A stretch of 64,000 nt of DNA from Psychromonas sp. CNPT3. GTDB taxonomy: Bacteria; Pseudomonadota; Gammaproteobacteria; Enterobacterales; Psychromonadaceae. The DNA lies in NCBI RefSeq assembly GCF_000153405.2, contig NC_020802.1:2189883-2253882 (forward strand). Direction: 5' to 3'. The translations under genes and the position numbers were made by a program. The notes below the pieces were generated by a model, which saw only the letters and a list, made by a program, of their open reading frames with translations, was not told where the DNA came from and did not search any database. Below are positions 1 through 15,218 of the stretch, piece by piece. Each line of letters starts with the position of its first letter. Within the stretch, counting starts at the first letter, position 1.

Positions 1-452
1 TTATGCCTGAAATTCTGCGCAGTGATATTTTTAAGCATTCATCATGGCAAGCAATTCAATGGGTTAATGTTGGTTTTTTATTCGGTGGCTGTGTTTTATT
101 ATATAAACGTATTATTCAATTCACTATCCCTTTAAGCTTCTTATTAGGCCTGATTTTCTTCTCTTTTGTGGCTTTTGCTTACGCTCCAGACTTAAATCCC
201 ACCCCTGTTTTCCATCTTTTATCTGGTGCGACTATGCTCGGTTGCTTTTTTATCTTAACCGATCCGGTAAGCGCCTCAACGACACAAAAAGGACGTATTA
301 TATATGCATTACTTATCGCGTTACTGGTTGTTTTGATCCGTAATGTTGGCGGTTACCCTGATGCACTTGCTTTTGCGGTATTACTGGCGAATATGTGCGT
401 GCCTTTGATTGATTATTATAGCCAGCCTAAAGTTTATGGAGAACGTTCATAA
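1..452 (+). CDS. rsxD: RsxD/RnfD electron transport subunit, C-terminal part
   Basis: The gene is cut by the window edge; about 149 C-terminal residues remain of a family usually near 350. RnfD is an integral inner-membrane subunit of the Rnf/Rsx ion-motive ferredoxin:NAD-type oxidoreductase and carries covalent FMN. The remaining part shows several hydrophobic helices (for example around VGFLFGGCVLLY and LLIALLVVLIRNVGGYP), and the segment GATMLGCFFILTDPVSA is typical of RnfD. The flavinylated threonine lies upstream and is not in the window. The stop overlaps the next ATG by one base, so rsxD and rsxG are probably translationally coupled. Identification rests on motifs and operon order. Confidence 0.95.
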   Translation, partial: MPEILRSDIFKHSSWQAIQWVNVGFLFGGCVLLYKRIIQFTIPLSFLLGLIFFSFVAFAYAPDLNPTPVFHLLSGATMLGCFFILTDPVSASTTQKGRIIYALLIALLVVLIRNVGGYPDALAFAVLLANMCVPLIDYYSQPKVYGERS

Positions 453-1084
453 TGCTATCTACCATCCGCCAAAATGCACTGTTGTTAGCCGGTTTTGCTA
501 TTATCTGTACTGGCGCTGTTGCCGTTGTGAATCAACTCACTAAACCTATCATTGCGCAGCAAGAAGAAAAAGCATTACTCAATACAATAGAGCAGCTGAT
601 CCCCGCCTCACTTTATGACAATGATATCGTCAATAGTTGCTTCCTTGTGGAAGACTCAGAATTACTGGGTAAAGGCATACAACAAAAAGTATTTGTTGCT
701 AAAAAATCTAAACTTCCCGTTGCATTAATGTTAGAAAGTAGTACGTTTAGAGGCTATTCGGGCGAAATAAAACTGGCAATCGGTATTTTTGAAAATGGCA
801 CTTTAGCGGGTGTTCGTGTATTACATCATACTGAAACACCGGGACTCGGTGATAAAATTCAATATAACAAATCGCGTTGGATCGATGTTTTTAAAGGTAA
901 ATCTTATCAAAACTCACAAGAAAAACGCTGGGAAGTTAAAAAGTATGGAGGCGATATTGACGCTTTTACAGGTGCCACAATCACCCCACGCGCCGTTACT
1001 TTGGCGATCCGAGATGCCTTAATTTATTTTCAAAAAAATAGAGATTTCCTCTTTAATCAAGCACCTAATTGTGGGAGTAAATAA
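452..1084 (+). CDS. rsxG: RsxG/RnfG electron transport subunit
   Basis: Full-length RnfG (210 aa). One N-terminal membrane anchor (about residues 9-27) is followed by a periplasmic FMN-binding domain. The flavinylation motif TGATIT lies at residues 173-178, with T176 the likely covalent FMN acceptor. The segment [11 protein letters not shown] is also characteristic of the family. In the Rsx/Rnf complex it relays electrons across the membrane; in E. coli the complex keeps SoxR reduced. It overlaps rsxD by one base and abuts rsxE with the overlapping stop/start TAATG, so it belongs to one operon. Confidence 0.96.
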
Positions 1085-1818
1085 TGTCTAACGAAAATAC
1101 GGATATTAACGAAAATCCTACTGAAATAGAAAAGTCTGTGTATAAAGAATTATTGCTACAGGGACTATGGAAAAACAATCCCGGTATAGTGCAATTACTG
1201 GGCCTTTGTCCTTTGCTCGCCGTAACCAACACAATGACCAATGCACTGGGACTCGGCATTGCCACTCTCTTCGTATTGATAGCTTCAAATACGCTGATTT
1301 CCTTAATACGCCATCATGTCACCAAAGCTATTCGTATCCCAATTTTTGTCATGATCATTGCATCTCTTGTCACCTGTGTACAACTGCTCATGAATGCATT
1401 TACCTATGAGCTCTACCTTTCCTTAGGTATTTTTATTCCATTGATCGTTACCAACTGTATTATTATTGGGCGCGCCGAAGCCTTTGCCTCTAAAAATAGT
1501 GTCGCACATGCAGCCTTTGATGGTTTAACCATGGGCCTAGGCTTTACAGCGGTTCTGCTGTTGCTTGGCACCGTGCGTGAAATACTCGCGCAAGGGACTC
1601 TGTTTGATGGTATTGAAACCCTGTTAGGTGATTGGGCAAAAACACTGACTTACACTTTATACAGTAGTGATACCAGCTTTTTATTAGCGGCTCTGCCACC
1701 GGGTGCGTTTATTATTATGGGGCTTATCCTTGCTTTAAAAAATAGTATCGATAACAAAGTGAAGAATAAACAAAAGAGTACATTAAATCATTGCTCTGTG
1801 AATTCGAGCGTTAAATGA
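1084..1818 (+). CDS. rsxE: RsxE/RnfE electron transport subunit
   Basis: Full-length integral membrane subunit (244 aa) of the Rsx/Rnf complex. It begins with a short cytoplasmic segment, then [21 protein letters not shown], the characteristic RnfE entry, followed by about six hydrophobic helices. [15 protein letters not shown] and [20 protein letters not shown] are family signatures; conserved cysteines in RnfA/RnfE are thought to bind an Fe-S cluster in the membrane. The start overlaps the rsxG stop by one base and the stop overlaps the nth start by four (ATGA), so rsxDGE-nth read as one transcript, the same order as E. coli. Confidence 0.96.
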
Positions 1819-2450
1819 ATCAATTAAAACGCGTCACATTACTCACTCGTCTACGCGATCAGAACCCGCATCCAGAGACAGAGTTAAATTACAGTAGTCC
1901 CTTTGAATTACTCGTAGCCGTCACCCTATCGGCACAAGCAACTGATGTCAGCGTTAATAAAGCAACTGATAAGTTATTTCCCATAGCCAATACGGCGCAG
2001 GCGATTTATGCCTTAGGTGAAAATGGCTTAAAAGAATATATTAAAACAATTGGTTTATATAACACTAAAGCGCGTAATGTTATCAAAGCATGCAAGATGC
2101 TAATTGAGCTCCATAACAGCATCGTGCCTGAAAATAGAGAAGCATTAGAGGCATTACCTGGCGTAGGTCGAAAAACAGCGAATGTGGTCTTAAATACGGC
2201 TTTTGGATGGCCAACTATCGCGGTAGATACACATATTTTTCGCGTTGCGAATCGCACTAAGCTTGCTATGGGTAAGAATGTAGATCAAGTAGAGCAAAAA
2301 TTATTAAAAGTGATCCCAAAAGAATTTAAAGTCGACGTGCATCATTGGTTAATATTACACGGACGTTATACCTGCATCGCAAGAAAACCCAGATGTGGTA
2401 GCTGTATTATTGAAGATTTATGTGAATACTCTCCACCAAAAAAAACGTAA
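1815..2450 (+). CDS. nth: endonuclease III, DNA glycosylase/AP lyase
   Basis: Repairs oxidised pyrimidines: removes the base and cleaves the AP site by beta-elimination. At 211 aa it matches the E. coli enzyme. The helix-hairpin-helix [12 protein letters not shown] carries catalytic Lys120, and Asp138 follows in AVDTHIFRV. The C-terminal [4Fe-4S] ligands are C187, C194, C197 and C203 with the usual C-x6-C-x2-C-x5-C spacing. All catalytic and cluster residues are present, so it should be active. The start overlaps the rsxE stop by 4 bp. Its 3' end is the left border of the accessory island. Confidence 0.98.
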
Positions 2451-2746
2451 AGAGTAAACAACAAAAAAACAACCTACAAGCAGAGCAGGCTGTATTGGAC
2501 TGCATTGAATTAGGTTACTGCCTTACGCTTCACAAAGCGCAAGGCTCGCAATTCCCACGAATGATTATAGCGTTACAAAAAGGTATGATAGTTGATAGAG
2601 CATGGCTTTATACCGCTATTACTAGAGCTGAGAGCGAAATTCATATTGTTGGCGCACAGCAAGACTTTAATGAGTTCAAAAAACTACCAAGCAACTCTCA
2701 CAAACGTAATAGCTATTTGGTTGATCTTCTAAAAAACAAAAAATAA
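2451..2746 (+). pseudogene. 3' remnant of a RecD-like/UvrD_C_2 helicase
   Basis: A reading frame entering from inside the nth 3' end and closing at 2746 encodes about 83 residues (from a TTG at 2495) matching only the last domain of RecD-like superfamily 1 helicases: GYCLTLHKAQGSQFPR (motif V region) and WLYTAITRAESEIHIVG (motif VI). No Walker A, Walker B or N-terminal domains exist upstream, because nth is intact there. It is therefore a truncated relic, probably left when the island inserted or rearranged. A functional stand-alone protein is unlikely. Family assignment is by motif recognition. Confidence 0.75.
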
Positions 2747-2837
2747 TTTATAACATTAGAGAGTGACTACGGGTGTAAGCAGACATAAGTTGTGTGTCAA
2801 CGCGAAGCGCTGGCCCCACGCTCCGTATTCTAGCCTT

Positions 2838-4583
2838 TTATAGTTGTGCTGTTGTTTCATAATCTGCCCCTGATTTAGTTTTATACCCTTTCTCTGAAAT
2901 CATATACAGATGCTTTTTAGCTCTCGATCCTATTACGTAAAGAAGCCGACGAGCTACATAGTTTTGATGAAGGTTGTCACAGCCAATAATATCGTTCCAA
3001 TTAGGAATCTTCCCTTTAAGTAAGCCTGTGCATATAACAACTTCGTATTCATCTCCTTTCGTTGAATGGCAAGTAGTTAGCTTGACTCCATTAGAAGCTG
3101 AAAAAAATTTATGTAGATCATTTGCTCTATATTGCATCTCATATTTTTTCATTCTCTCTAACGCTGAATCAATTAAACTACATTTTCCTACTTTTGCCAC
3201 AGAATTACCGATTATGTCTATCTTGAGAATATTGCAAAAAGAATCAATTACTAAATTAATCCATTCTACAATCTCTATGTCGGTCTCTATTACAAGAGAA
3301 TTTATCGTTCTCAGTATAACCTTAGGATTAAGTATGCTTCCTAAAGAACCTGAATGGTATAAGTTATCTGAAAGTTCATTTGCAAGCCTATTTCTATTTA
3401 TGTAATTGCTTATACAAGGTTTCAGTAACATTAGGCGTATCAGACTCAACCAAATGTTATCTTGGTTCTTAGGTATAGGCGAAACCAGAAAGCCATTTAT
3501 GGAAAAAGATTTGTCCATTAGGTCAATTTCTTTTGATAAATTTATTACACCAAACCAACTTGGACACAATACTACTATTTCATTCGCATTAATCCCTTGT
3601 TTTAGGTGTGTTTCTACCACTCCAATTACGTAGTCTGCTAACTGAGTCTTATCTATATTATTTTCTAAATGAACGATAGAGTGGAAATTTTTTAAGTCTG
3701 ACTTGGATTCTATTTCGTGCTTGTCATCTTGATACTTTTTGTAGTAATCAATAATTCTTTGGCTACTTCTAAAGCACCATGTAAGATTTTTTTCACAAAT
3801 ATTATCTATTTCAAAATAGTTTTCTATTTCTATTTTATCTTTGACTATTGCCCCTAAGCCAGTATAGATTGCTTGCTCTTTATCACCAATTAAGGTGAGT
3901 TTAGAATGCCTTTTCATGATAATTAGTTTAATAATCTCATACTGAACTTCTGAAATGTCTTGGTATTCGTCAATAAGAAGGTGAGAAACTAACAGAGCAA
4001 GTCGATCGCACAATGCAGGGTACATTTTTAATAACTTGTAGCTAATATTAAGTATTAACTCAAAGTCTATATAGCCGTTATCACGTAGGTACTTGTGATA
4101 ATCTACTACTAAATTATATTTAACTGAATTTTTAGGGTAGATAGGCTGATAATTCAAATCTAAGGCGGTTTGTATAGGATCATAATTGCCAATTTCGAAT
4201 TCTTCTCTTAACTCTCTCATCTTCGATTCTTGTTCATACTCATCTATTATAATATACCCATGCTTTAGCCTTGGTATTTTGTTAATGTTGGGTTTGATAA
4301 TCCATTGTAAACAAAATGAATGGATTGTTCCTACCCAAAGAGAGTCATCTTTTATTCCGTATGAAAGTAGCCTCTCAGAAATCGTATCCGCTGCAATATT
4401 GGTGTAAGTTATTGCAATAACTTTTTTCTTACCAATGGATAATTTATCTGAATTTTCCAGAATGTAATATAACTTTGAAACCAAAGTCCTTGTTTTCCCT
4501 GATCCCGGGCAAGCAGAAAGTAATAAATTATCTTCAAAAGTTACTGCTGACATTTGTTCTTTAGTTAAATTACTGTATGGCAT
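2838..4583 (-). CDS. UvrD/PcrA-like helicase of a Gabija-type defence system (GajB-like)
   Basis: Superfamily 1A helicase, 581 aa. Motifs in order: Q-motif LTKEQ (6-10), Walker A SACPGSGKT (23-31), Ia AITYTN (57-62), GTIHSFC (85-91), motif II LLIDEYQD (202-209), motif III LTLIGDKEQAIY (229-240), IV WCFRSSQ (269-275), V CHSTKG (505-510), VI RRLLYVIGSRAKK (546-558). Motif VI has SR where TR is usual. The start codon overlaps the stop of the upstream OLD nuclease by one base, so the two are coupled. In Gabija, GajB is a helicase/ATPase activated by DNA termini that works with GajA; it is somewhat longer than the roughly 490 aa I recall for the Bacillus protein. Confidence 0.88.
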   Translation of the reverse strand: MPYSNLTKEQMSAVTFEDNLLLSACPGSGKTRTLVSKLYYILENSDKLSIGKKKVIAITYTNIAADTISERLLSYGIKDDSLWVGTIHSFCLQWIIKPNINKIPRLKHGYIIIDEYEQESKMRELREEFEIGNYDPIQTALDLNYQPIYPKNSVKYNLVVDYHKYLRDNGYIDFELILNISYKLLKMYPALCDRLALLVSHLLIDEYQDISEVQYEIIKLIIMKRHSKLTLIGDKEQAIYTGLGAIVKDKIEIENYFEIDNICEKNLTWCFRSSQRIIDYYKKYQDDKHEIESKSDLKNFHSIVHLENNIDKTQLADYVIGVVETHLKQGINANEIVVLCPSWFGVINLSKEIDLMDKSFSINGFLVSPIPKNQDNIWLSLIRLMLLKPCISNYINRNRLANELSDNLYHSGSLGSILNPKVILRTINSLVIETDIEIVEWINLVIDSFCNILKIDIIGNSVAKVGKCSLIDSALERMKKYEMQYRANDLHKFFSASNGVKLTTCHSTKGDEYEVVICTGLLKGKIPNWNDIIGCDNLHQNYVARRLLYVIGSRAKKHLYMISEKGYKTKSGADYETTAQL

Positions 4584-6697
4584 TAGATATCCATGAATTT
4601 AATAAAGGAATCATTTTTAAAGAATTCCCTATAGGCTTTAAACTTCGCTTCAAAAGTAGATTTACTGTTTATTTTCTTTTGCTCCTTTTTTTCCATTTGG
4701 CTAATGTTATAATCCATCATTTTTAAACATATTTCGCTCAAATTCCTGTGGCTTAAAGAAAACTTAATTGCTTTCAAAATATATGTGGGAACTACGTTCT
4801 GAATACTGACATGCTCAATCATTTTTGTAGCAAGCCACCCCTTGCCAATTTTATTTGCAAACTTCAGGGTACTGTAATATCTAAGAGGCATATCCTTAGA
4901 AGATATATTGTTTATGACCTTCTCTCTAACGGCTTCCTTTGTATAACTTGTCTTTACTACATCATTGAATAATTGGACATTTTCAGGGTATCTGACTAAT
5001 TCTGTCTCAAATGTGTTTTCAGCATAAAATGCTTCAACATATTCGTTATCTTTTATATATTCATTCATTTTAGCCTTTCTCAATGCACCAGACTTCTCTG
5101 CGTCGATTTGAGATTTTACATATTTGTCTGAAGCAAAGTCTTCATCAGTAATAAATGAAGCATCCAAGTCGGTTAAGATAGAACAATAGTTTTTAATTCT
5201 GGTTTTATGGAAAAGATCTGAAATATGAATGAAAACTGTCCCATCCATTTTTACTAAACTAATTCCCATTTCATCCAAACTCACACCTAAAGTTTCTCTG
5301 ACTAATGCAGGTATTAAAATTAATTCCGCATCTCCTTCTACGAGTATTACACTCTTGGCGAATAAGATGTCGCTTCGTACTGCATCTAAATAGCGTTCTA
5401 TGCATTGTGCGTTAGGTTCATCCAAACCACTTGCAGGAAAATAGACCTCTGTTTTTGATTCTTTACGAGCGAGTATATTCATTGAAGATATCTTCGAAGC
5501 AGAGCTGATTTGTGTTGAATGAGTGGATACAAAAACTTGTGTGTTTTTAAAGTTAAAGTTTTCAAATAAAGTTTTTTGAATGTGATTATGAATATGAGCC
5601 TCTGGCTCTTCTATCATTAAAAAGTGAGTTATATGTGCTTCATTATCCCGAATTGCTTCATATTCATATAACTTTAAAGCTAAGAAAATTAAATTTGCTC
5701 CGCCCAAACTAAGGTCTTCTATCTTTCCTGTTCCTTGATAATTAATTGAGTCTTCTACAATTAGACCTAGTGATTGAATAAGCTCAGTAAAGTCTTCAGG
5801 GAGCTGTGATGACACATTAATCTTCGGAGAGTAAGTGGAACCTACTGTGTTTATTAACGACTTTGAAATACTTTTACTTAATGCTTCAATCTCAGGGATG
5901 GATGATATCTTTTCATTCACCTTCCTAATATCATTTGCTACATCTTTTTCGTCTTCAATATGCTTACTTTCTAGGGTAAGTAATTTATATAACGGATTTG
6001 TTTTGTGATATTTTAAATCAGCAACAACATTTCTAAGTGCTTTAACATATGTACAAGCGACTTCTTTCACTATTGAAAAATAGGGGGGCTTATAGTTCCC
6101 TATTTCTGTACTGTCTTCCATGTTAGGGTCTGGAAAAATATAATTATCAAAGTCACCTACTATTTTTTTATAAACATTTTGATCAGTAAAATCTAACTTA
6201 GTTCGAACAAATGCTACAGGCTCATAAGTTTCTCGTGTAATCGACTGCTTAGAAATAAATTTTTTAATTGCATCTGTACGTTCATCTTTATCAGAATAGC
6301 GACTACTAAGTAAGTGCATTTCCTGCCGTATATGCGCTTTGGGTCTATAGATAAACGAATATGTACCAGAACCAGTAGCCGTACTTTTTCCATCATCATT
6401 AAGAATGTAATTTGATAAAACATGTTCTTCTTCAGAGTCGCCCAATCCATCGAAAAAAATCGAAATGACTATCCAATGTCCAAAAGGTTCTCCCAATCCC
6501 CGATGAAAGTCATCTTTAGATAGGCACTTTGCATTCATTGGTAAAGAGTCATCTAATACAATACGCATAGCTTGAAAAACATTCGTTTTTCCAGAAGCAT
6601 TTTCTCCTATGATTGTATTTACAGAATCTTTAGAAAAATTAAAGTTTGATTGCTCAAAGTTTTTATAGTTAACAATTGAGAGGCGACTGATATACAT
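4583..6697 (-). CDS. OLD-family ATPase/TOPRIM nuclease of a Gabija-type defence system (GajA-like)
   Basis: Overcoming-lysogenization-defect (class 2 OLD) protein, 704 aa. Walker A GENASGKT is at 31-38, ABC-type signature LSLGG at 329-333, Walker B FLMIEEPEAH at 359-368, and the H-loop STHS at 391-394. A TOPRIM nuclease domain follows with LVEGDAE (E454) and LTDLDA (D510, D512), the acidic residues that bind metal. Both ATPase and nuclease centres look intact. A UvrD-like helicase is encoded one base downstream, the arrangement defining Gabija. In that system GajA is a nucleotide-sensing, sequence-selective DNA nicking enzyme. It is longer than the Bacillus GajA (about 580 aa as I recall), with extra C-terminal sequence after TOPRIM. 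Confidence 0.9.
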   Translation of the reverse strand: MYISRLSIVNYKNFEQSNFNFSKDSVNTIIGENASGKTNVFQAMRIVLDDSLPMNAKCLSKDDFHRGLGEPFGHWIVISIFFDGLGDSEEEHVLSNYILNDDGKSTATGSGTYSFIYRPKAHIRQEMHLLSSRYSDKDERTDAIKKFISKQSITRETYEPVAFVRTKLDFTDQNVYKKIVGDFDNYIFPDPNMEDSTEIGNYKPPYFSIVKEVACTYVKALRNVVADLKYHKTNPLYKLLTLESKHIEDEKDVANDIRKVNEKISSIPEIEALSKSISKSLINTVGSTYSPKINVSSQLPEDFTELIQSLGLIVEDSINYQGTGKIEDLSLGGANLIFLALKLYEYEAIRDNEAHITHFLMIEEPEAHIHNHIQKTLFENFNFKNTQVFVSTHSTQISSASKISSMNILARKESKTEVYFPASGLDEPNAQCIERYLDAVRSDILFAKSVILVEGDAELILIPALVRETLGVSLDEMGISLVKMDGTVFIHISDLFHKTRIKNYCSILTDLDASFITDEDFASDKYVKSQIDAEKSGALRKAKMNEYIKDNEYVEAFYAENTFETELVRYPENVQLFNDVVKTSYTKEAVREKVINNISSKDMPLRYYSTLKFANKIGKGWLATKMIEHVSIQNVVPTYILKAIKFSLSHRNLSEICLKMMDYNISQMEKKEQKKINSKSTFEAKFKAYREFFKNDSFIKFMDI

Positions 6698-6741
6698 AGA
6701 TTTTTACCTAAGTGATTATCTTTATGATGTATTTTATATTA

Positions 6742-6763
6742 ACGTATTTAGGGTTAAATACGT
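6742..6763. promoter_or_regulatory. inverted repeat upstream of the Gabija genes, candidate operator
   Basis: A perfect 9-bp inverted repeat ACGTATTTA / TAAATACGT with a 4-base centre (gggt) ends 45 bp before the GajA start at 6697. Size, symmetry and position fit a repressor binding site or a short 5'-UTR hairpin. No regulator gene is encoded next to it, so any factor would come from elsewhere. Inferred from sequence only. Confidence 0.4.
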
Positions 6764-7102
6764 GTGAGATATGTCAATTTATTATGAGAAAAAAAATCGG
6801 ACATCCAAACCTTTTTCCAGTCATTTTAATCCAATAAATTAAACCGCGATACAAAACATCAACTAAAGATCTCGATCAATCACAAAAAAGAGGGGATATA
6901 TGATTTCAAAGGCGAACATTTAACATGCCAAAGTAATTTCTTGCTTTGCAGGTACATTAGATTTCAGCGGGTAGGCTGATACGAGGAAATACACCAGCGA
7001 ATTTTTGGTATCAGATCTTGCCTTTTGCTATTACGCTCTCTATTGAGAGAAAATCAGCATAAATAGGCTACTACAACCGATAAATAGAACAAACATTCTA
7101 AG

Positions 7103-7134
7103 TCGCTTTGTGCCCTTTTTCGCCCTAGGAAGCT
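7103..7134. repeat. 32-bp imperfect direct repeat, left copy
   Basis: This block, beginning TCGCTTTGTGCCC and ending AAGCT, recurs at 8218-8249 with 27 of 32 positions identical by hand alignment. The two copies flank the two-gene module at 7274-8046 and lie 1,115 bp apart in the same orientation. Each is followed immediately by an inverted repeat of unrelated sequence. This suggests a boundary element of a mobile or cassette-like unit, or a duplicated regulatory block. Confidence 0.55.
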
Positions 7135-7162
7135 AACTCGCAAACGCCCCCTAGCGAGTTAG
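7133..7162. repeat. hairpin following the left direct repeat
   Basis: Perfect 9-bp inverted repeat CTAACTCGC / GCGAGTTAG around a 12-base centre. It sits directly after the 32-bp repeat and about 110 bp upstream of the module's first gene. No T-run follows, so it is not an ordinary terminator. It is faintly reminiscent of integron attC arms but too short for a normal attC. Confidence 0.5.
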
Positions 7163-7273
7163 GGAAGTATTATTTACAGGACCAACGTTATTAAACTTTC
7201 TCAGTCCCTAATGCCTACAAGTAGATCAACCAGTTATAATCTACTCTTCTATCCCTTTACACCTTATAGTAGA

Positions 7274-7717
7274 ATGGAACATCAGCCCTTCAATAGGATA
7301 TATTTAGTGCTTGAAAAGTTTGGTCAACAGTCACAATCAGCAGCACAAAAGCTACATGTCAAAAGTGCATTGAACCCTTTGCTATGGCTAACTGGAATAG
7401 CATCACCAATTTTCTTTGGCACTGCTTTCGTCTTTAAAGATACCGAGCTAGTAAATGTTCTCATTTATGCAGGTATGGTTCCTATGGTAGTTACATGTTT
7501 AGGGTTTTGCTTCTTTGCATTATTCAAGCCAGAAAAATTACAATCTGAAGATTACCAACTAAAACATGAATCCTTAAACTTAATGCAAGAAAAGTGTGGT
7601 GGTATTCAAATATCTACCATATCGTTAGAACAAATAGTTAACCCGATTATTATGCAAAAAGAACAACAAGAATTACCTAACACCCCTCAACAAGCTACCC
7701 AAGGGGAACTCTCATGA
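7274..7717 (+). CDS. two-TM protein of unknown function, first gene of the accessory module
   Basis: Not assigned to a named family. From the ATG at 7274 it is 147 aa; an in-frame ATG at 7211 would add 21 residues. Neither has a clear ribosome binding site, and I prefer 7274 because the extra segment looks unstructured. An amphipathic N-terminus leads to LNPLLWLTGIASPIFFG, the first membrane helix, then a second helix (VLIYAGMVPMVVTCLGFCFF). A charged cytoplasmic tail follows with KPEKLQSEDYQ right after the membrane. I recall similar P-x-x-LQSE tails in uncharacterised island proteins, unverified. It overlaps the next gene by 4 bp (ATGA), so the two form an operon. Confidence 0.7.
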   Translation: MEHQPFNRIYLVLEKFGQQSQSAAQKLHVKSALNPLLWLTGIASPIFFGTAFVFKDTELVNVLIYAGMVPMVVTCLGFCFFALFKPEKLQSEDYQLKHESLNLMQEKCGGIQISTISLEQIVNPIIMQKEQQELPNTPQQATQGELS

Positions 7718-8046
7718 ATATGTACATGCTGTCTTTCGCTTCTAAAAGTGGAAATGTAACCAGAGCAAAAATCCAAGATTTTTTAAGCACATTACCAGAA
7801 GTACTTAATTGGTATGGTGTAATGCCATTTACCATTTTAATTGTAATGGATAATCACAGCCATCTATTTGATAATGCATTAACAAATAAACTTGTCGAAA
7901 AATTTAGTGATGACGTTTCTTTTTTATTCACTTCAATTTCTAAAGAAAACATAGCAGGTTACATTAATAAAGAAGTGTGGGAATTCATCAACACCCCAAA
8001 GGCTAACCCTATACTCGCAGATAATCGAATCAATAAAAACGTATAA
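7714..8046 (+). CDS. small Cas2/SinR-like (ferredoxin-fold) protein, second gene of the accessory module
   Basis: 110 aa, unnamed. The secondary-structure pattern reads beta (MYMLSFASK), long alpha (TRAKIQDFLSTLPEVLNW), beta (FTILIVMD), alpha (ALTNKLVEKFS), beta (VSFLFTSIS), then a C-terminal GYINKEVWEFINTP. This resembles the small ferredoxin-fold SinR-like/Cas2-like proteins, which have a similar terminal W-x-x-x-x-W-like ending; that is an inference from pattern, not a match. It has no catalytic motif I can name. The start lies within the stop of the two-TM gene (ATGA), indicating coupled synthesis and probably interaction at the membrane. Confidence 0.72.
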   Translation: MNMYMLSFASKSGNVTRAKIQDFLSTLPEVLNWYGVMPFTILIVMDNHSHLFDNALTNKLVEKFSDDVSFLFTSISKENIAGYINKEVWEFINTPKANPILADNRINKNV

Positions 8047-8079
8047 ACTTTATTTGGTGTGACTTTCTTGCGATTACCG

Positions 8080-8119
8080 TGACCTTTACTCGGCTCAAAT
8101 GATTCACTAGTAAAGGTCA
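8080..8119. repeat. 11-bp stem hairpin after the module
   Basis: Perfect inverted repeat TGACCTTTACT / AGTAAAGGTCA with an 18-base loop, 34 bp after the stop of the second module gene. There is no T-run on either side, so intrinsic termination is unlikely. It could protect the 3' end of the transcript or be a protein-binding site. Confidence 0.5.
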
Positions 8120-8217
8120 TACATGCAATCAATAAAATTCATCTACCAATTAGAATATGGGGTGAGGTTTAGGTATTTAATCTTGACTTTCGATATATTG
8201 TAAGTTTATTTCCTATC

Positions 8218-8249
8218 TCGCTTTGTGCCCCTTTGCGCCTTAAAAAGCT
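8218..8249. repeat. 32-bp imperfect direct repeat, right copy
   Basis: Second copy of the block at 7103-7134 (27 of 32 identical). Like the left copy it is followed by an inverted repeat, here at 8250-8271, although the hairpin sequences differ. The conserved block plus a non-conserved hairpin on each side of the two-gene module is the main evidence that the module is a discrete unit. Confidence 0.55.
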
Positions 8250-8271
8250 GTAATATTGTGATTAATATTAC
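8250..8271. repeat. hairpin following the right direct repeat
   Basis: Perfect 8-bp inverted repeat GTAATATT / AATATTAC with a 6-base centre, starting one base after the right 32-bp repeat. It occupies the same relative place as the hairpin at 7133-7162 but shares no sequence with it. Confidence 0.45.
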
Positions 8272-8524
8272 TCAGCAACAACACTATGAGAACATCTGTA
8301 AACACGAGTATATGCGGGTTGTTTTTGTAAAGGATTTCGGGTTAAAAAGACCTTAAATATTTTCTTAAACCCCTTACTTTTACAAAATGGTGTTTTTTTG
8401 TAATGGATTTTTGATGACCTAAATAAGCTAAAGCCTATCAAGCAATAGCCTTCACTCACTCACCCACTAGGTTAATTGATTTTTGGTGGATATAAATTGA
8501 ATTTAAAGAAAAGACGGATATTTA

Positions 8525-8560
8525 AAAAATAAAACCGAGATTTATCTCGGTTTTATTTTT
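8525..8560 (-). terminator. rho-independent terminator of yehS
   Basis: A 17-bp stem (AAAAATAAAACCGAGAT with its complement) and a two-base loop end 8 bp beyond the yehS stop. It has A/T runs on both sides, so it can terminate leftward transcription from yehS and also rightward readthrough from the island. Confidence 0.9.
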
Positions 8561-8568
8561 CCAATCAC

Positions 8569-9051
8569 TTATTCGCTTGGCGTAGTACCACGAAAACGTT
8601 TAGTTATCCCATTTAAGAAGTTACGTAACAGTTGATCGCCACACTCTTTATAATTGCGATGATCTCTCTTACGGAATAAAGCCGATAATTCAGATTTAGA
8701 AACAGGAAACTCCGCAGATTCCAATGCATCTAACATATCCTGCTCTTTGAAATTTAATGCGATACGTAATTTTCGTAAAATATCATTATTCGACAAAATG
8801 GCTTTAGCCGATAAAATCACTGGACTTGAGCCTTCTTTTTTACCGCGTTTCTCATCGATTAATCCATCTAAAAAAAGAGATAACAAACTATCACGACAAA
8901 AAACAAAGTTCTCTTCGCCTTCTTTTGCGATGATGCTGTGTAGGTATTTTTCATCAATTGCATTATCAACAGAAGCAAAAATGCCTAACATCTTTTTATC
9001 GTTTAGTTGTAACGCATAACGTACACGTCGTAAAACATCATTTGTGATCAT
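8569..9051 (-). CDS. yehS: YehS family protein (DUF1456)
   Basis: 160 aa, the usual length. DUF1456 proteins are two tandem copies of a roughly 70-residue helical repeat, and both are clear: repeat 1 begins NDVLRRVRYALQLNDKKMLG and repeat 2 begins NNDILRKLRIALNFKEQDML. Each ends with a short basic stretch (IDEKRGKKEG and ITKRFRGTTP). The biochemical role is unknown. It is transcribed alone, with its own terminator just downstream, and follows the methyltransferase gene on the same strand after 62 bp. It probably marks the right border of the island inserted after nth. Confidence 0.9.
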   Translation of the reverse strand: MITNDVLRRVRYALQLNDKKMLGIFASVDNAIDEKYLHSIIAKEGEENFVFCRDSLLSLFLDGLIDEKRGKKEGSSPVILSAKAILSNNDILRKLRIALNFKEQDMLDALESAEFPVSKSELSALFRKRDHRNYKECGDQLLRNFLNGITKRFRGTTPSE

Positions 9052-9113
9052 AAATTCTCAATCGTTAAGTTATTAAAGTAAAAAATCATTATACCGATTA
9101 TTTCAATACACTG

Positions 9114-10274
9114 CTAATCTGCTTGTAGCACATCGAGCAAAGCGTTAGCAATTAAGCGGATCAAATCCACCGAAACTGAGTTTCCCGCTTGTTTATAAAG
9201 GTGCCCATTAGACATATTCTCCGGTAAAACATAGCCGTCAGAAATAGGAAAGCCTTGTAATTTAAACGTCTCGCTAGGCGTTAATTTACGCACACCATCG
9301 GCAACCTTGATCAAAGGTACATTATGCCCTCCTGTGCCCATATTAGCGGTCAGTGTAGGGCAAATACCTTGGGTGTTTTTACGCACATACATACCGCGAC
9401 GCAATTGATAAAACTCAAATTCGGTATCTATTTCTTCGCCAATATGAATGCGCTCTTTTTTGCGTTTATCCTCAGAAAGTGCTGCATATTGCGCTTTATT
9501 GATAAAATAATGCGGGTACTTCTCAGGCGTATAATAATACGCGTTTAATTCTTCTTTGCTTTTATGTAAATCAAGTACACGTGCAATATTTGTCCGGCGC
9601 TGATCATCTGATGATTTTATCTTAATGCTTTCTAATTGTTCAAAAAGTGTAAATTTATCAGCATCACTTTGCTTTAAAAAACACACAATAAACATACGCT
9701 CTCTATTTTGAGGCAAAGTGGTATATGTTTTAGTATTTAATGTCGCATCTTTTACAATATATCCGGCGTTTTCAATTTCAGATTTGATCACTTGATACGT
9801 TCGCCCTTGATCATGCGATCGTAGATTTTTAACATTTTCTAAAAATAAAATCCGAGGTTTATAAGCAACTTTGCCGAGATCATTTACCAAGTCAATAATA
9901 CTGTAAAAAAGATTACCTCGATGATCATCGAAGCCTTTACGCGAACCCGCAATACTAAACGCTTGGCAAGGGAACCCCGCCGTTAACACATCGATAGGTT
10001 GCGCCAACATTTGCATTTTCTTTTGTGCAAACAAGGCCTCTTCGCCATCTGCTTTTGCTCTTTCCGGCTTGACTATTTTTTCAATATCACCGGGGATCAT
10101 ATTATGCTCAAAATTACATCGATATGTTTTTATCGCCTGCTCATCAAGCTCATTTGCCCAAATAAGTTGATACCCGCCTTTCTCATTAAATGCACTTTTA
10201 AAACCGAGGCAAACACCTCCAACACCTGCAAATAAACTGCCTACTTTATAATTCATTATTTTCCTAAAAATCAT
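9114..10274 (-). CDS. type II DNA (cytosine-5) methyltransferase
   Basis: 386 aa with all key m5C methyltransferase motifs: I VGSLFAGVGG (11-20), IV FPCQ with catalytic Cys103, VI ENV (146-148), VIII QNRER (189-193), IX RKLTPSETFKLQGFP, X QAGNSVSVDLI. The region between VIII and IX is the target-recognition domain; its specificity cannot be read from sequence. It protects host DNA from the nuclease encoded immediately upstream (11 bp gap, same strand). The start may instead be the second Met at codon 7, giving MNYKVGSLFAG. It is probably acquired with its partner: the pair is inserted between yehS and nadA. Confidence 0.95.
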   Translation of the reverse strand: MIFRKIMNYKVGSLFAGVGGVCLGFKSAFNEKGGYQLIWANELDEQAIKTYRCNFEHNMIPGDIEKIVKPERAKADGEEALFAQKKMQMLAQPIDVLTAGFPCQAFSIAGSRKGFDDHRGNLFYSIIDLVNDLGKVAYKPRILFLENVKNLRSHDQGRTYQVIKSEIENAGYIVKDATLNTKTYTTLPQNRERMFIVCFLKQSDADKFTLFEQLESIKIKSSDDQRRTNIARVLDLHKSKEELNAYYYTPEKYPHYFINKAQYAALSEDKRKKERIHIGEEIDTEFEFYQLRRGMYVRKNTQGICPTLTANMGTGGHNVPLIKVADGVRKLTPSETFKLQGFPISDGYVLPENMSNGHLYKQAGNSVSVDLIRLIANALLDVLQAD

Positions 10275-10285
10275 ATGTTTTATAT

Positions 10286-11428
10286 TTATTTTAATTCTTT
10301 AATAAATGACTCATAAGAGTCCAATTTAGAAAAGTTAATTGAGTACGTACCGTTATAGAATTTATCAATGCGCACCGAATCTATTCCTATACTGCGCAGG
10401 TGCGCATAAGTCAGTAGATCGCCTTCTTTTAAATTTAAAATGTCTCTTAATATCCACTGACCTAATGCTTTATTCGACTGGGACATTAGCGCTTTATTGC
10501 CCTGCTGGCACAATTTAGATTGTAAAATTTTATTATTGGGAAGTAATAAAGAAAATGCCGTATTTCCCTGTGGGAAAAAATCCGGTTTAAGCTTATGTAT
10601 TAAACGAGGTACCGGTATATACGCTTCATTTATATCTCTTTTCCTTCCGTTTGCGTGCCATTGATTTAATCCACTGCGCAAGTGTACTTCTTTGTTCCTA
10701 CCATACAGCGGCAGGTATAACGTATCTTCAATGCGCTGTTCTGCATTGCTTTTTAACAATGCATGTTCGCTTTTATTAGTGATAGCAGGATCGATAAAAT
10801 CAAAAGGTTGCATCAATATATCAACCGCAAACGAGTGCAACGCAGTCTCGGTTATAAAACGTTTGTATAGTGTTGATTTACTAATATTAAATTTATACTC
10901 AGACAATCCATCTGAAAAGTTGATGATATTATTATTGTCTTTCGTAATACAGATATTATTAATATCGATTAAATTCATTGGCTCTTCAAAAATTTGAAAA
11001 GCCCCTTCCTTACGTACCACACAGTGATAAATCGCAGCATCAAGTTGATAAGCTCTCGACGTGAAATTTAAGCGATTATTTCTCAACTCTGCTACTTTTT
11101 TCACCAGATCAAAAGAAGGATAATGACTATAATCTCCTCTTTGGCGATTAAACTCCGCTATTTTTTGATATGTTTTGCCGTTATTAAACAAAAAAGTTTT
11201 TAAACCAATGCCTATTTTTTTATTCGTAACTGTTAAAACAGCATCACTTGAAACATCACCCCTAGAAAGATCATCCGCCTCAAAACATTCGCAATAGATT
11301 TTTTCTGCTATTCGATAATATAAATAAGGCGTCGTTGAATCTGAAAACAAATGCGACAATTTCCCAATTAACTGCAACCTTTGCGTATATTTCAAACGTT
11401 GTCTTTGTGCTGATGCTGCAAAATACAT
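10286..11428 (-). CDS. type II restriction endonuclease, PD-(D/E)XK-like with NgoFVII-type C-terminus
   Basis: 380 aa, paired with the cytosine methyltransferase. The N-terminal half has a plausible PD-(D/E)XK centre: E42 in the first helix (RIAEKIY), D62 (SSDAVLTV) and K77 in GIGLKTF. The C-terminal third (EAYIPVPRLIHKLKPDFFP, then LLLPNNKILQSKLCQQGN, NKALGQWILRD and IGIDSVRIDK) resembles the DNA-binding domain I associate with NgoFVII-type enzymes, whose catalytic half is instead phospholipase D-like. If correct, this is a domain shuffle. Being 5' to the methyltransferase with no controller gene, timing control is not evident. Assignment is from motifs and context. Confidence 0.82.
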   Translation of the reverse strand: MYFAASAQRQRLKYTQRLQLIGKLSHLFSDSTTPYLYYRIAEKIYCECFEADDLSRGDVSSDAVLTVTNKKIGIGLKTFLFNNGKTYQKIAEFNRQRGDYSHYPSFDLVKKVAELRNNRLNFTSRAYQLDAAIYHCVVRKEGAFQIFEEPMNLIDINNICITKDNNNIINFSDGLSEYKFNISKSTLYKRFITETALHSFAVDILMQPFDFIDPAITNKSEHALLKSNAEQRIEDTLYLPLYGRNKEVHLRSGLNQWHANGRKRDINEAYIPVPRLIHKLKPDFFPQGNTAFSLLLPNNKILQSKLCQQGNKALMSQSNKALGQWILRDILNLKEGDLLTYAHLRSIGIDSVRIDKFYNGTYSINFSKLDSYESFIKELK

Positions 11429-11484
11429 GTTTAATCTCTTCTTTAAAATATTTTACAAAATACACAATAAACGCCAGCAAACTG

Positions 11485-11644
11485 ATAGCAATGGGATCCA
11501 TTAAGTGATCATGTCTTACGCAGGGAAATTAGCACTCGCGATGCATAAGTTGCAGTACATAGTTGCTCTCACTTCAAAACTCAACACGCTGGTAGGGATA
11601 ATTTCAACAAGCCAGACAGATCACTTTTTTAGTGCCTTTGCTAT
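11485..11644. repeat. ~160-bp intergenic element with inverted ends, diverged copy C
   Basis: Diverged copy of the element at 51049-51209 and 63383-63543, in the same orientation as the latter. Shared interior blocks include CACTTCAAAACTCA and GATAATTTCAACAAGC. Its ends read ATAGCAATGG and CCTTTGCTAT, where the better copies have ATACCAAAGG and CCTTTGGTAT: the fifth-from-end change is matched on the other side, so pairing of the ends is preserved. It ends on the first base of the nadA stop codon. Confidence 0.75.
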
Positions 11645-12702
11645 TAAGCATTACCTTTTGTTTTAAGTTGCTGCTCGGTCGCAAAGTCCAACATACGGTT
11701 TAATGAAATGAGCGCACCTTTGGCAATGTCTTTATCAACATCAACTTCATGCCCATTACTGTCTATCAGCGCATCATATATCGCTTTTAAGCCGTTCATC
11801 GCCATCCAAGGGCAATGAGCACAGCTTTTACACGTCGCGCCGTTACCGGCCGTAGGGGCTGCTAAAATCTCTTTGTCGGGACACACTTGTTGCATTTTAT
11901 AAAAAATACCGGTGTCAGTTGCAACGATCAAGGTTTTATTCGGTAAGGTTTTAGCTGCATGAATTAATTGACTGGTTGAACCGACCGCATCGGCAAGTTT
12001 TACCACACTATCAGGCGACTCAGGGTGCACTAAAATAGCGGCATCGGGATAAATGGCTTTCATATCACGTAAAGCACTGGCTTTAAATTCATCATGAACG
12101 ATACAGTCACCTTGCCAAAGCAACATATCCGCACCCGTTTGTTTTTCAATATAGCCACCTAAATGTCTATCGGGTCCCCATATTATTTTTTTACCTTGGC
12201 TGTCTAAATGATCGACGATTTCAAGTGCGATACTTGACGTTACCACCCAGTCTGCACGCGCTTTTACAGCAGCCGAAGTATTGGCATAAACCACCACAAT
12301 GCGATCTGGATGTTGATCACAAAAAGCACTAAATTCATCAACAGGGCAACCCACATCAAGCGAGCATGTAGCCTCTAATGCTGGCATTAATATTTTCTTA
12401 TTAGGAGTTAATATCTTAGCCGTCTCCCCCATAAATTTAACACCGGCTACAATAATGGTTGAAGCACTATGATCACGCCCAAAACGCGCCATATCTAAAG
12501 AGTCAGATACATAGCCTCCCGTCTCTTCAGCTAATGCTTGAATTTCAGGATCGGTATAATAATGAGCAATTAAAACAGCATCTTTAGCAACTAATAGCTT
12601 TTTGATTTTAGCTTTATAGTCCACTTTATCTTGCAATGATAACGCACGAGGCTTCGGTGGAAATGGGTATGCAGAACCAGCAAGGGAGAATATTGTGCTC
12701 AT
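11644..12702 (-). CDS. nadA: quinolinate synthase A
   Basis: Condenses iminoaspartate with dihydroxyacetone phosphate to quinolinate in de novo NAD synthesis. 352 aa, close to E. coli NadA. Family motifs are [10 protein letters not shown] near the N-terminus, [12 protein letters not shown] with the first cluster cysteine, [10 protein letters not shown] and [13 protein letters not shown] with the last; these cysteines hold the [4Fe-4S] cluster that acts as Lewis acid. It follows the tRNA-Lys array on the same strand as the tol operon, as in E. coli, although upstream of it in transcription sense it is a separate unit. Its 3' end abuts a repeat element. Confidence 0.97.
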
Positions 12703-12948
12703 TGTGTCTCTTTACTTATAAAAAAAAGATCCTAATTATACGCGTTTGCACATAAAAACGATAATGATCTTGGGTAAATCTACATAATAATAAGAAGAAT
12801 ATAAAGGAAGAACATCTATGTTATTGATAATACGGGTAGCAATGAAAGGGTTGAACTTTTTAAAAAAGGATAAGAGTCTACTGTTATATAATCTGAGCTA
12901 AAGGCTCATAGGCAGTATTACAATTTGAAATTTACTGATACGTAAAAG

Positions 12949-13024
12949 TGGTGGGCCGTGAAGGATTTGAACCTTCGACAAATGGATTAAAAGTCCACTG
13001 CTCTACCAACTGAGCTAACGGCCC
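12949..13024 (-). tRNA. tRNA-Lys(UUU), copy 1
   Basis: 76 nt with encoded CCA. The acceptor stem begins GGGCCGT, the D arm is GCTC/GAGC, the anticodon loop CTTTTAA gives anticodon UUU, and the T arm is GAAGGTTCAAATCCTTC. The transcript runs leftward. It is identical in sequence to the five copies that follow. Confidence 0.98.
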
Positions 13025-13087
13025 ATTATAGGGTCTTACTTTTGATACGCTATATTATAGTTTTACTATCCACCTTTGATTAAAAAG

Positions 13088-13163
13088 TGGTGGGCCGTGA
13101 AGGATTTGAACCTTCGACAAATGGATTAAAAGTCCACTGCTCTACCAACTGAGCTAACGGCCC
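13088..13163 (-). tRNA. tRNA-Lys(UUU), copy 2
   Basis: Identical 76-nt tRNA-Lys with anticodon UUU and encoded CCA. The spacer to copy 1 is 63 bp and differs in sequence from the spacers farther right. Confidence 0.98.
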
Positions 13164-13229
13164 ATCTATAGGGTCTTAATTTAACAATCTACGTTACAGT
13201 CTTTACTGCACACTTTTAAACAATAAAAG

Positions 13230-13305
13230 TGGTGGGCCGTGAAGGATTTGAACCTTCGACAAATGGATTAAAAGTCCACTGCTCTACCAACTGAGCTAAC
13301 GGCCC
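13230..13305 (-). tRNA. tRNA-Lys(UUU), copy 3
   Basis: Identical 76-nt tRNA-Lys(UUU). The 66-bp spacers on both sides of this copy are identical to each other, making a perfect 142-bp tandem unit with the neighbouring copy. Confidence 0.98.
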
Positions 13306-13371
13306 ATCTATAGGGTCTTAATTTAACAATCTACGTTACAGTCTTTACTGCACACTTTTAAACAATAAAAG

Positions 13372-13447
13372 TGGTGGGCCGTGAAGGATTTGAACCTTCG
13401 ACAAATGGATTAAAAGTCCACTGCTCTACCAACTGAGCTAACGGCCC
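13372..13447 (-). tRNA. tRNA-Lys(UUU), copy 4
   Basis: Identical 76-nt tRNA-Lys(UUU) with encoded CCA. The next spacer (13448-13514, 67 bp) is a diverged relative of the previous 66-bp spacers, sharing the right half. Confidence 0.98.
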
Positions 13448-13514
13448 ATCTATAGGGTCTTATTTTTTACAAACTACATGACAGTCTTTACTGCACACTT
13501 TTAAACAATAAAAG

Positions 13515-13590
13515 TGGTGGGCCGTGAAGGATTTGAACCTTCGACAAATGGATTAAAAGTCCACTGCTCTACCAACTGAGCTAACGGCCC
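13515..13590 (-). tRNA. tRNA-Lys(UUU), copy 5
   Basis: Identical 76-nt tRNA-Lys(UUU) with encoded CCA. The spacer beyond it starts with the same ATCTATAGGGTCTTAATTT motif but then diverges. Confidence 0.98.
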
Positions 13591-13660
13591 ATCTATAGGG
13601 TCTTAATTTCGACAAGTTAGATTGTAGTCTTTTCATGCATCACTTTCATTTAAATAAAAG

Positions 13661-13736
13661 TGGTGGGCCGTGAAGGATTTGAACCTTCGACAAATGGATT
13701 AAAAGTCCACTGCTCTACCAACTGAGCTAACGGCCC
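13661..13736 (-). tRNA. tRNA-Lys(UUU), copy 6, promoter-proximal
   Basis: Identical 76-nt tRNA-Lys(UUU), first in transcription order and 178 bp downstream of the cpoB stop. The array may be read through from tol-pal or from a promoter in this gap. In E. coli the same position holds a mixed Lys/Val array; here all six are Lys. Confidence 0.98.
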
Positions 13737-13914
13737 ATCATGAATCTTATCTATTAAAGGTCAACATGAGATGCATTACTCATTCGCTCCAACTGCGGCG
13801 TATGATATACAATATATTAAATAGCGCAACAAAATTTAGTGCTTTTTTTTCTGTTTGCAGATAAAACAAACAAAAGTGAACTAATACACCTACTTTTTCA
13901 ATAAATTGCTTATA

Positions 13915-14643
13915 TTACAAACTATTTAAACGTTGCGTTGCCAATTTTGCAGCCGATGAATCTGCATATTCCTGTATGACTTTTTGATAAAATATTTTAG
14001 CCGACGCATTTTTTCCTAAGTACTCGTCAATAATACCAATTTTGAAAAGTGCATCTGCGCGTTTATTTGACGTTAAATGCTCCTGTGTCACCACTAAAAA
14101 AGCTTGGCGTGCTTTTTCACGTTGTTTTTCTTTATATAACAACTGCCCTAACCAATACTGCGCATTCGCAATATAATTAGATTTCGGATATGTTGTAATA
14201 AATTCATCAAAAGCAACAATGGCTTGTTTATATTCTTTATTTACTAAGACTAAATTAACCGATTTTTGATATGCATCTTTCTCGTTAGGAGGAAGTGAAG
14301 ATGTTGACTCTTTCAATGCAAGTGTCACTTTTTCGGTTTTATTTTCTTCAATGAGCTGATACAGGTTACGCTGACGATTTTCAATTTGATTCATTTTATG
14401 ATCAAATACTTCTACGCTACCTTTTATTTGACTCACTTCTCGCGAAATTTCATCTAATTGGTGCTGAAAACGGATCTGCATCTTATTACGCGTTTCAAGT
14501 AAACGTGTTAGCGCTTGTATTTGTTTTTCCATTGCGTTCTGACTGCTATAACCCGTGACATCGCTTACCGGCGCTATAGCAAAAGAAAAGCTAGAAAAAC
14601 AAGTAGCTACTAATATAGCTACTTTAATTTTCATAGGGGTCAT
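13915..14643 (-). CDS. cpoB: Tol-Pal cell division coordinator CpoB (YbgF)
   Basis: Periplasmic protein that links Tol energy to PBP1B during septal peptidoglycan synthesis in E. coli. 242 aa: signal peptide (about residues 1-23, cleaving after a run ending FSFA), a trimerising coiled coil around residues 35-85 (MEKQIQALTRLLETRNK and following heptads), then a C-terminal TPR domain from about residue 120 with YKQAIVAFDEFITTYPKS, ANAQYWLGQLLYKEKQ and ADALFKIGIIDEYLGK. It is the last gene of the tol-pal operon, 9 bp after pal. Length and order match E. coli. Confidence 0.96.
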   Translation of the reverse strand: MTPMKIKVAILVATCFSSFSFAIAPVSDVTGYSSQNAMEKQIQALTRLLETRNKMQIRFQHQLDEISREVSQIKGSVEVFDHKMNQIENRQRNLYQLIEENKTEKVTLALKESTSSLPPNEKDAYQKSVNLVLVNKEYKQAIVAFDEFITTYPKSNYIANAQYWLGQLLYKEKQREKARQAFLVVTQEHLTSNKRADALFKIGIIDEYLGKNASAKIFYQKVIQEYADSSAAKLATQRLNSL

Positions 14644-14652
14644 TGTATTAAC

Positions 14653-15183
14653 TTAGTAAGTTAATTCAGCACGACGATTTTCTGCGCGAGCTGCTGCATC
14701 ATGACCTAAGTTAACAGGTTTTTCTTCGCCGTAACTTACGATGCTAATTTGTTTTGATGTTACGCCCATGTTTTCTAAGTAAGTAGATACAGACATAGCA
14801 CGACGTTCACCAAGAGCGATGTTGTACTCTGGAGTACCTCTTTCATCGGTGTTGCCTTCAATTGTTAACAATTTAGTTGGGTGATCAACAAGAAATTTAG
14901 CATGTGCGTCAAGAATTTTAGTGTAACGCGCTTTTAATACTGAAGTGTCATAATCAAATTGAATAGTCGTTTCTAAAATAGCGTATGAATATGCTTTCGC
15001 TAATTTTTCTTCGTCTGTTAAATTCATTGCATCAACAACAGCTGTTTCTACTGTTTCAGCACTTACAACTGCACTGTTAGTTTCGTTAGATGTTGCATCA
15101 GACTCACTACTTGAACTACATGCACCTAGCGCTAACATTGGTAGAGCGATTAACAAACTCTTTGAAATCATAGAGATTTTCAT
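14653..15183 (-). CDS. pal: peptidoglycan-associated lipoprotein Pal
   Basis: Outer-membrane lipoprotein that anchors the membrane to peptidoglycan and binds TolB. 176 aa. The lipobox ALGAC places the acylated cysteine at residue 22, followed by a Ser/Thr/Glu-rich linker to about residue 65. The OmpA-like domain carries the peptidoglycan-binding signature EGNTDERGTPEYNIALGERR and ends with ENRRAEL. It lies 35 bp after tolB on the same strand. All expected elements are present. Confidence 0.97.
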   Translation of the reverse strand: MKISMISKSLLIALPMLALGACSSSSESDATSNETNSAVVSAETVETAVVDAMNLTDEEKLAKAYSYAILETTIQFDYDTSVLKARYTKILDAHAKFLVDHPTKLLTIEGNTDERGTPEYNIALGERRAMSVSTYLENMGVTSKQISIVSYGEEKPVNLGHDAAARAENRRAELTY

Positions 15184-15218
15184 TTTTTATTCCTTGTTGT
15201 TTTTTATATTATAAATAT

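Follow-up and report, generated by a model that had tools for sequence, protein, structure and literature searches.

An overlapping gene pair encoding a two-TM protein and a SinR-like small protein as a candidate phage exclusion module in Psychromonas sp. CNPT3

In the 64,000-nucleotide stretch of DNA from Psychromonas sp. CNPT3 analysed here (contig NC_020802.1, positions 2,189,883 to 2,253,882; referred to as the window), two short genes, A and B, lie next to a Gabija system, which raises the question of whether they form one functional unit and what this unit could do. Gene B (7714-8046, + strand) encodes 110 aa and overlaps the end of gene A by the ATGA at 7714-7717 (+ strand), so that the ATGA arrangement behind the translational coupling proposed by the first-pass annotation is directly visible in the sequence. 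The Shine-Dalgarno-like AAGGGGA of B is located within the 3' end of A. For gene A, a protein of 147 residues with two TM segments and a charged tail had been annotated, starting with the ATG at 7274 (+ strand). The open reading frame and both TM segments were found as described, while the length has probably to be reduced: judged from the sequence, the GTG at 7307 is the likelier start, since several A homologues begin at the equivalent position in the alignments and an AGGA motif lies 8 nt upstream. Gene A (7307-7717, + strand) would accordingly encode a 136-aa predicted inner-membrane hairpin protein composed of two TM helices, the stretch KPEKLQSEDYQ and a variable tail. In the 147-aa numbering, the hydrophobic segments comprise residues 36-54 and 62-80, separated by a loop of 7 residues. 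The AlphaFold model, weak as a whole (pLDDT 65, pTM 0.41), places helices at 33-53 and 59-84, contains no strand and shows a pLDDT under 50 for the tail. An LQSE/LRSE motif is conserved after the two predicted TM helices. The charge rule favours the topology only partly, given that acidic and basic residues are about equally frequent in the flank following the second TM segment.

The module proposed by the first-pass annotation depended on the two genes being neighbours in other genomes as well, and A and B were indeed adjacent at every genuine locus at which both were readable. Intact pairs in the order A, B were present at 21 loci (the window, L003-L008, L010, L012, L016-L018, L030, L032, L033, L111-L113 and L115-L117), corresponding to 18 non-redundant pairs, since L033 is almost a duplicate of L032, as are L116 and L117 of L115. 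The genes always overlapped, by 4 nt in 13 and by 8 nt in 8 of the 21 pairs. L031 (identical to L114), which contains the same pair as L012, as well as L118, L119 and L120, which are contigs of L032, L033 and L010, were not counted again. Searches with A only revealed 17 further A loci, 16 of them with an overlapping B downstream; at the remaining one (L009) the contig ends with A, and one of the 16 (L013) comprises a disrupted A frame and an intact B. Searches with B only led to L005 and L030-L033, with A upstream in all of them, and to one lone SinR-like protein (genome G023) without A. Twelve weak A matches (L014 and L019-L029) were rejected as unrelated membrane proteins and are not part of the 17, because no B-like ORF of at least 70 aa was seen by eye (for L019-L029 on the strand of the match) and several of them lie in operons which, by eye, were assigned as FixH-like or secretion/pilus-like.

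In whole genomes the A/B pair is rare. B was found in 1 of 99 relatives, namely the genome of the window itself, PHROG 27377, the family matched by A, in 3 of 274 genomes of the class, and alignment A1 in 4 of 398 genomes of the phylum, 3 of which were genuine; the latter two counts include the genome of the window. With alignment A4, 15 of 394 genomes of the order were hit, 4 of them genuine (again including the genome of the window). Two further searches were uninformative: alignment A5 (0 of 369 genomes), for which the search contained no control genome, and phrog_1090 (0 of 114 genomes and 0 of 14 controls).

When the window was compared with L005, and L017 with L032, pN amounted to 0.15-0.39 in both genes, compared to a pS of 0.65-0.82, which points to purifying selection on both A and B in these two comparisons. 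Together with the 20 further intact overlapping loci, this indicates that the pair is more than a chance arrangement. A was recognisable across all pairs (hhalign between the groups 98.6%, E 1.4e-15), and B splits into two groups (hhalign between them 1.8%). In 21 of 28 comparisons within group 1 and in 46 of 48 between the groups, the identity of A exceeded that of B, as expected if B meets variable triggers. Within group 2, the same was observed in only 1 of 15 comparisons, which speaks against a simple interpretation of B as a fast-evolving sensor.

The neighbourhood in the window, for which the ORF listing covers positions 1-16000, confirms the annotated location among defence genes and divergent from Gabija. 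GajB (2838-4583, PADLOC E 2.6e-198) and GajA (4583-6697, PADLOC E 1.3e-270) are both encoded on the minus strand, and on the opposite side of the pair a DUF1456 gene precedes the type II R-M genes, which encode a cytosine methylase and an NgoFVII-like endonuclease. At the other loci, Gabija was not seen beside the pair by eye. Cytosine methylase genes like that of the window also occur between nth and nadA in G004, G008, G013, G015 and G016. The region between these two genes (2450-11643 in the window; L090-L105 in the relatives) is a hypervariable spot in the genus. Only yehS was present between nth and nadA in 5 of the 16 fetched relatives, counting ORFs of at least 120 aa. Of all relatives, G004 has the NadA most like that of the window (91%), its nth being only 82% alike; its nth and yehS are 42 bp apart, and a stretch of approximately 6.1 kb of the window (2428-8497), in which the A/B pair lies together with Gabija and a helicase fragment, has no match in its corresponding locus (L095). 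The GC content of 2451-8568 was 0.336 compared to 0.376 for the window. In the nth-nadA loci of the 16 relatives, mostly non-defence cargo was seen by eye, R-M genes excepted, which weakens the neighbourhood argument for a defence function.

Within this spot, the pair is bracketed by a near-identical 22-nt direct repeat (7103-7124 and 8218-8239, + strand), which gave two matches in total in the 3.05-Mb genome at up to 3 mismatches and whose 10-base core is absent from the nth-nadA loci of the 16 relatives. The repeat may mark an insertion of the pair of its own. A reading of this repeat as attC was rejected, since by eye the adjoining hairpin is too short. Five Rfam matches at E 1 or less were obtained for 6600-9100, all of them below the gathering score. 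Between nth and Gabija, a short ORF (2495-2746, + strand) matches only the C-terminal domain of UvrD-like helicases (UvrD_C_2, E 1.4e-11) and is probably the remnant of another element.

Outside the window, the pair was observed in prophage-like contigs, in an array of integron cassettes, on a plasmid of Acinetobacter and in chromosomal islands. Phage-like contigs or regions (L007-L010, L012, L017, L018, L030, L032/L033, L111-L113 and L115-L117) were recognised by eye from the neighbouring genes and from IMG/VR membership. In L010, A and B come after an HTH gene, which matches Pfam HTH families weakly (best E 2.3e-4, below the cut-off), and the replication genes occupy the opposite strand; this corresponds to the cI-rexAB layout. 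A tyrosine integrase gene lies directly upstream of the pair in L008 and L030. In L018 and L111, endolysin/spanin-type genes, assigned by eye, immediately precede the pair, and in L007, L009 and L030 lysis-type genes were noted by eye at a distance of 2-5 kb. This proximity (within about 5 kb in all five cases), like the small size and the two TM segments of A, could be explained by a phage lysis accessory, either holin/antiholin or lysis regulator, which strayed into chromosomes. We regard this as improbable and as the least likely of the four explanations considered, given that a gene upstream of the pair in L018 is already holin-like (PF16080, E 1.5e-4, below the cut-off) and that no lysis-type gene was seen by eye in the fetched stretches of L005, L006, L010 and L032 or near the pair in the window.

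In an Oleispira MAG (L005), the pair belongs to a series of small genes and is flanked, as a unit of two genes, by attC-like sites. All 6 gaps in this series start with TAACAA, 4 of the 6 end with GGCGTTA and 2 with variants of it. By script, two strict attC-like pairs were determined, compared to a mean of 0.02 and a maximum of 2 in 2000 base shuffles. R''/R' attC patterns, sought in L003-L006 and L008, were returned for L005 only. An integron integrase above the curated cut-off is encoded by the MAG, possibly on another contig than the pair. On the Acinetobacter johnsonii plasmid pXBB1-6, an Abi_2 gene, which also matches PD-T4-5, precedes the pair. HigB-HigA genes were found near the pair in L003 and L004; in L016, the neighbour of the pair is a MazE-like gene.

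The overlapping two-gene layout, the plasmid and integron carriage and these toxin-antitoxin neighbours would also be in line with an addiction module that stabilises prophages, cassettes and plasmids, A being a membrane-active toxin and B its protein antitoxin. Passages of PMC12657230 describe a comparable situation for Panoptes, the 2TM toxin of which can be held off by the activity of its small partner. However, none of the scanned Bs showed a DNA-binding autoregulator domain above the Pfam or NCBIfam cut-off, and we consider this explanation quite unlikely. Since addiction modules can also abort infection, it overlaps with the explanation preferred here, namely that A and B are two parts of one mobile module acting against incoming phage in a RexAB-like manner. 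The steady overlap of the genes together with the two-gene cassette suggests that A and B act together, and the mobile contexts and the neighbouring genes suggest competition with phages. An abortive-infection module, as the first-pass annotation had envisaged, fits these mobile contexts.

For B, a beta-alpha-beta ferredoxin-like pattern and a Cas2/SinR-like character had been annotated. The structure prediction agrees with the former, as the model of B shows a ferredoxin-like fold, which is common to the SinR-like/Cas2-VapD superfamily including BPSL1038. The latter has to be divided. The SinR-like part is supported by profile searches: a profile of five group-1 Bs detected L122, the SinR-like protein from G023, at 25.2 bits (E 2.3e-5; best of 2000 shuffles 9.9), and a SinR-like profile of two sequences matched group-2 B by hhalign with 90.7% (E 1.2e-6), whereas the comparison of this two-sequence profile with group 1 was weak (4.7%, E 0.0085). 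Thus, B appears to be related in sequence to the SinR-like proteins. The Cas2-like part applies to the fold only. In Foldseek and VIA-align comparisons of the B model, Cas2 and VapD did not score above ACT, PII-like, HMA or S6 folds, and a BFVD fold search gave a best E of 2.7e-3 and no named relative. A PII-like protein was rejected as an interpretation of B, since the model has no long loop between strands 2 and 3. The cas2 family was not listed for window B in Pfam or NCBIfam up to E 10, and L122 showed a weak match to the Cas2 model TIGR01573 (E 0.043, below the cut-off). L122 (G023:C23, 1501-1764) occurs without A and adjoins a larger uncharacterised protein.

The catalytic residue gives a mixed picture across the family. 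The Asp of Cas2 and BPSL1038 is missing in window B, which contains no Asp in or just after strand 1. At the end of this strand it is likewise missing in L003, L004 and L005 and, at the aligned place, in L012, L112 and L115-L117. An Asp at the end of strand 1 was found in 8 of 13 group-2 B loci (7 of 10 non-redundant; counted from the B starts), and 4 of 8 group-1 Bs have one close to it. The latter counts, and the DNA endonuclease activity that PMC10491678 reports for the Cas2/VapD-like BPSL1038, would be in line with A as a membrane anchor for a Cas2/SinR-type B that binds or cuts nucleic acids. B would thereby be positioned at the inner membrane and encounter the DNA of phages or plasmids upon injection. 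The Bs without this Asp and the unspecific fold match to Cas2 argue against it, and this explanation appears unlikely. For window B in particular, a nuclease role is unlikely because the Cas2-type aspartate is absent. The partner of Cas2 is Cas1, and that of VapD is its own antitoxin, whereas B is tied to a two-TM protein.

Regarding a possible assignment to a named system, the first-pass annotation had recognised none, and no naming family above a curated cut-off was obtained for the members scanned: neither A nor B reached one in Pfam or NCBIfam, none of 10 A proteins matched in PADLOC, and window B, the one B scanned there, gave a match only at E 0.022. A of the window (phrog_27377, E 6.3e-19), L007, L009, L010 and L012 matched PHROG 27377 (5 of 5 scanned). 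PHROG 32103 was matched by B of L006, L007, L008 and L010 and not by B of the window, L012 and L013 (4 of 7 scanned). Both families are labelled as function unknown, with no pairing or mechanism attached. By tblastn with five queries (window A, window B, A of L003, B of L007 and B of L016), no relative of A or B was detected in 50,697 annotated phage records, whereas IMG/VR contigs do contain the pair. In plasmids, tblastn gave no match for window B or B of L016, and window A found one plasmid, the own A of which found only itself. Single-protein scans of viral contigs gave no matches; alignments A1 and A4 led to the same four loci. Sequence searches of the PDB resulted in chance-level matches for alignment A3 of B, which is too variable for contig scans, and for A4, and in none for A5. 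In the literature, no paper was found on SinR family proteins in defence, none on the PHROG numbers, none on the Gabija combination, and none judged relevant by title on SinR-like proteins and Cas2. Two integron antiphage papers of 2025, cited in PMC13092281, where matches were confined to references and abbreviations, lie outside the literature found and may contain a description of the pair.

The closest parallels are provided by two-gene prophage exclusion, the layout of which, as outlined in parts of PMC6426606, resembles A/B. Lambda RexAB, CarolAnn gp43/gp44 and Sbash gp31/gp30 consist, as presumed for A/B, of two co-expressed prophage genes for one membrane and one cytosolic protein, and in one locus, L010, the layout recalls lambda rexAB and cI in that the pair follows the repressor-like gene with the weak HTH matches. 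The proteins themselves differ. In the relevant passages of PMC6426606, CarolAnn gp43 and Sbash gp31 are given four predicted TM segments, compared to two in A, and gp44 and gp30 approximately 370 aa and a weak DUF4747 match as in RexA, compared to approximately 100 aa and a ferredoxin-like model for B. Up to E 10, B gave no DUF4747-type Pfam match, so that neither this protein nor the two TM segments of A agree with a RexAB-type assignment. Panoptes (mCpol with 2TM-beta) likewise combines a two-TM protein with a small partner. According to the passages of PMC12657230 concerned, its effector carries a C-terminal beta-barrel binding c-di-AMP and mCpol is a cyclase, whereas A contains no strand in its weak model and B has no Pfam cyclase match. 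Altogether, the layout belongs to a known kind and the fold points to a known superfamily, while no assignment of the pair to a named system was obtained.

Based on these observations, some role in phage defence or exclusion is rather probable, as the genomic contexts suggest. The RexAB-like module is our first choice for this role, held tentatively, and the assumed division of labour, with A as membrane effector and B as cytosolic sensor or regulator, is equally provisional. A would reside in the inner membrane, its two ends facing the cytoplasm, and would be kept inactive by B; alternatively, the tail of A would do this, B acting as co-sensor. Once B is altered by a product or a nucleic acid of the infecting phage, A would assemble in the membrane and the infection would come to a halt, either because the membrane potential is lost or because DNA entry is blocked. 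Such a mechanism has been proposed for RexAB-like pairs. The pair would serve prophages in superinfection exclusion and would be retained by chromosomes within defence islands. With somewhat more reserve, A/B could represent a new family of two-component exclusion modules, in which a protein of the Cas2/SinR superfamily, having lost the nuclease residue in one branch, now serves as sensor or gate of a dedicated two-TM effector. Such a family would comprise one conserved membrane part and two very divergent B branches, spread by prophages, integron cassettes and plasmids.

If true, this would provide a function for two phage protein families labelled unknown (PHROG 27377 and 32103). Furthermore, a Cas2/VapD-type fold wired to a membrane effector would help to explain unassigned SinR-like proteins. 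The pair is small (<0.8 kb), forms a single integron cassette in one genome and is easy to test.

Two further observations concern the phage-like regions that carry the pair. The contig of L116 also encodes a protein similar to L122 (4001-4366, minus strand; cas2 E 0.019). In addition, genes for a protein kinase and a PP2C phosphatase lie side by side in L087 (8736-10222, minus strand; by Pfam) and in L032 (6230-7719; by eye), and this gene pair is possibly another defence module.
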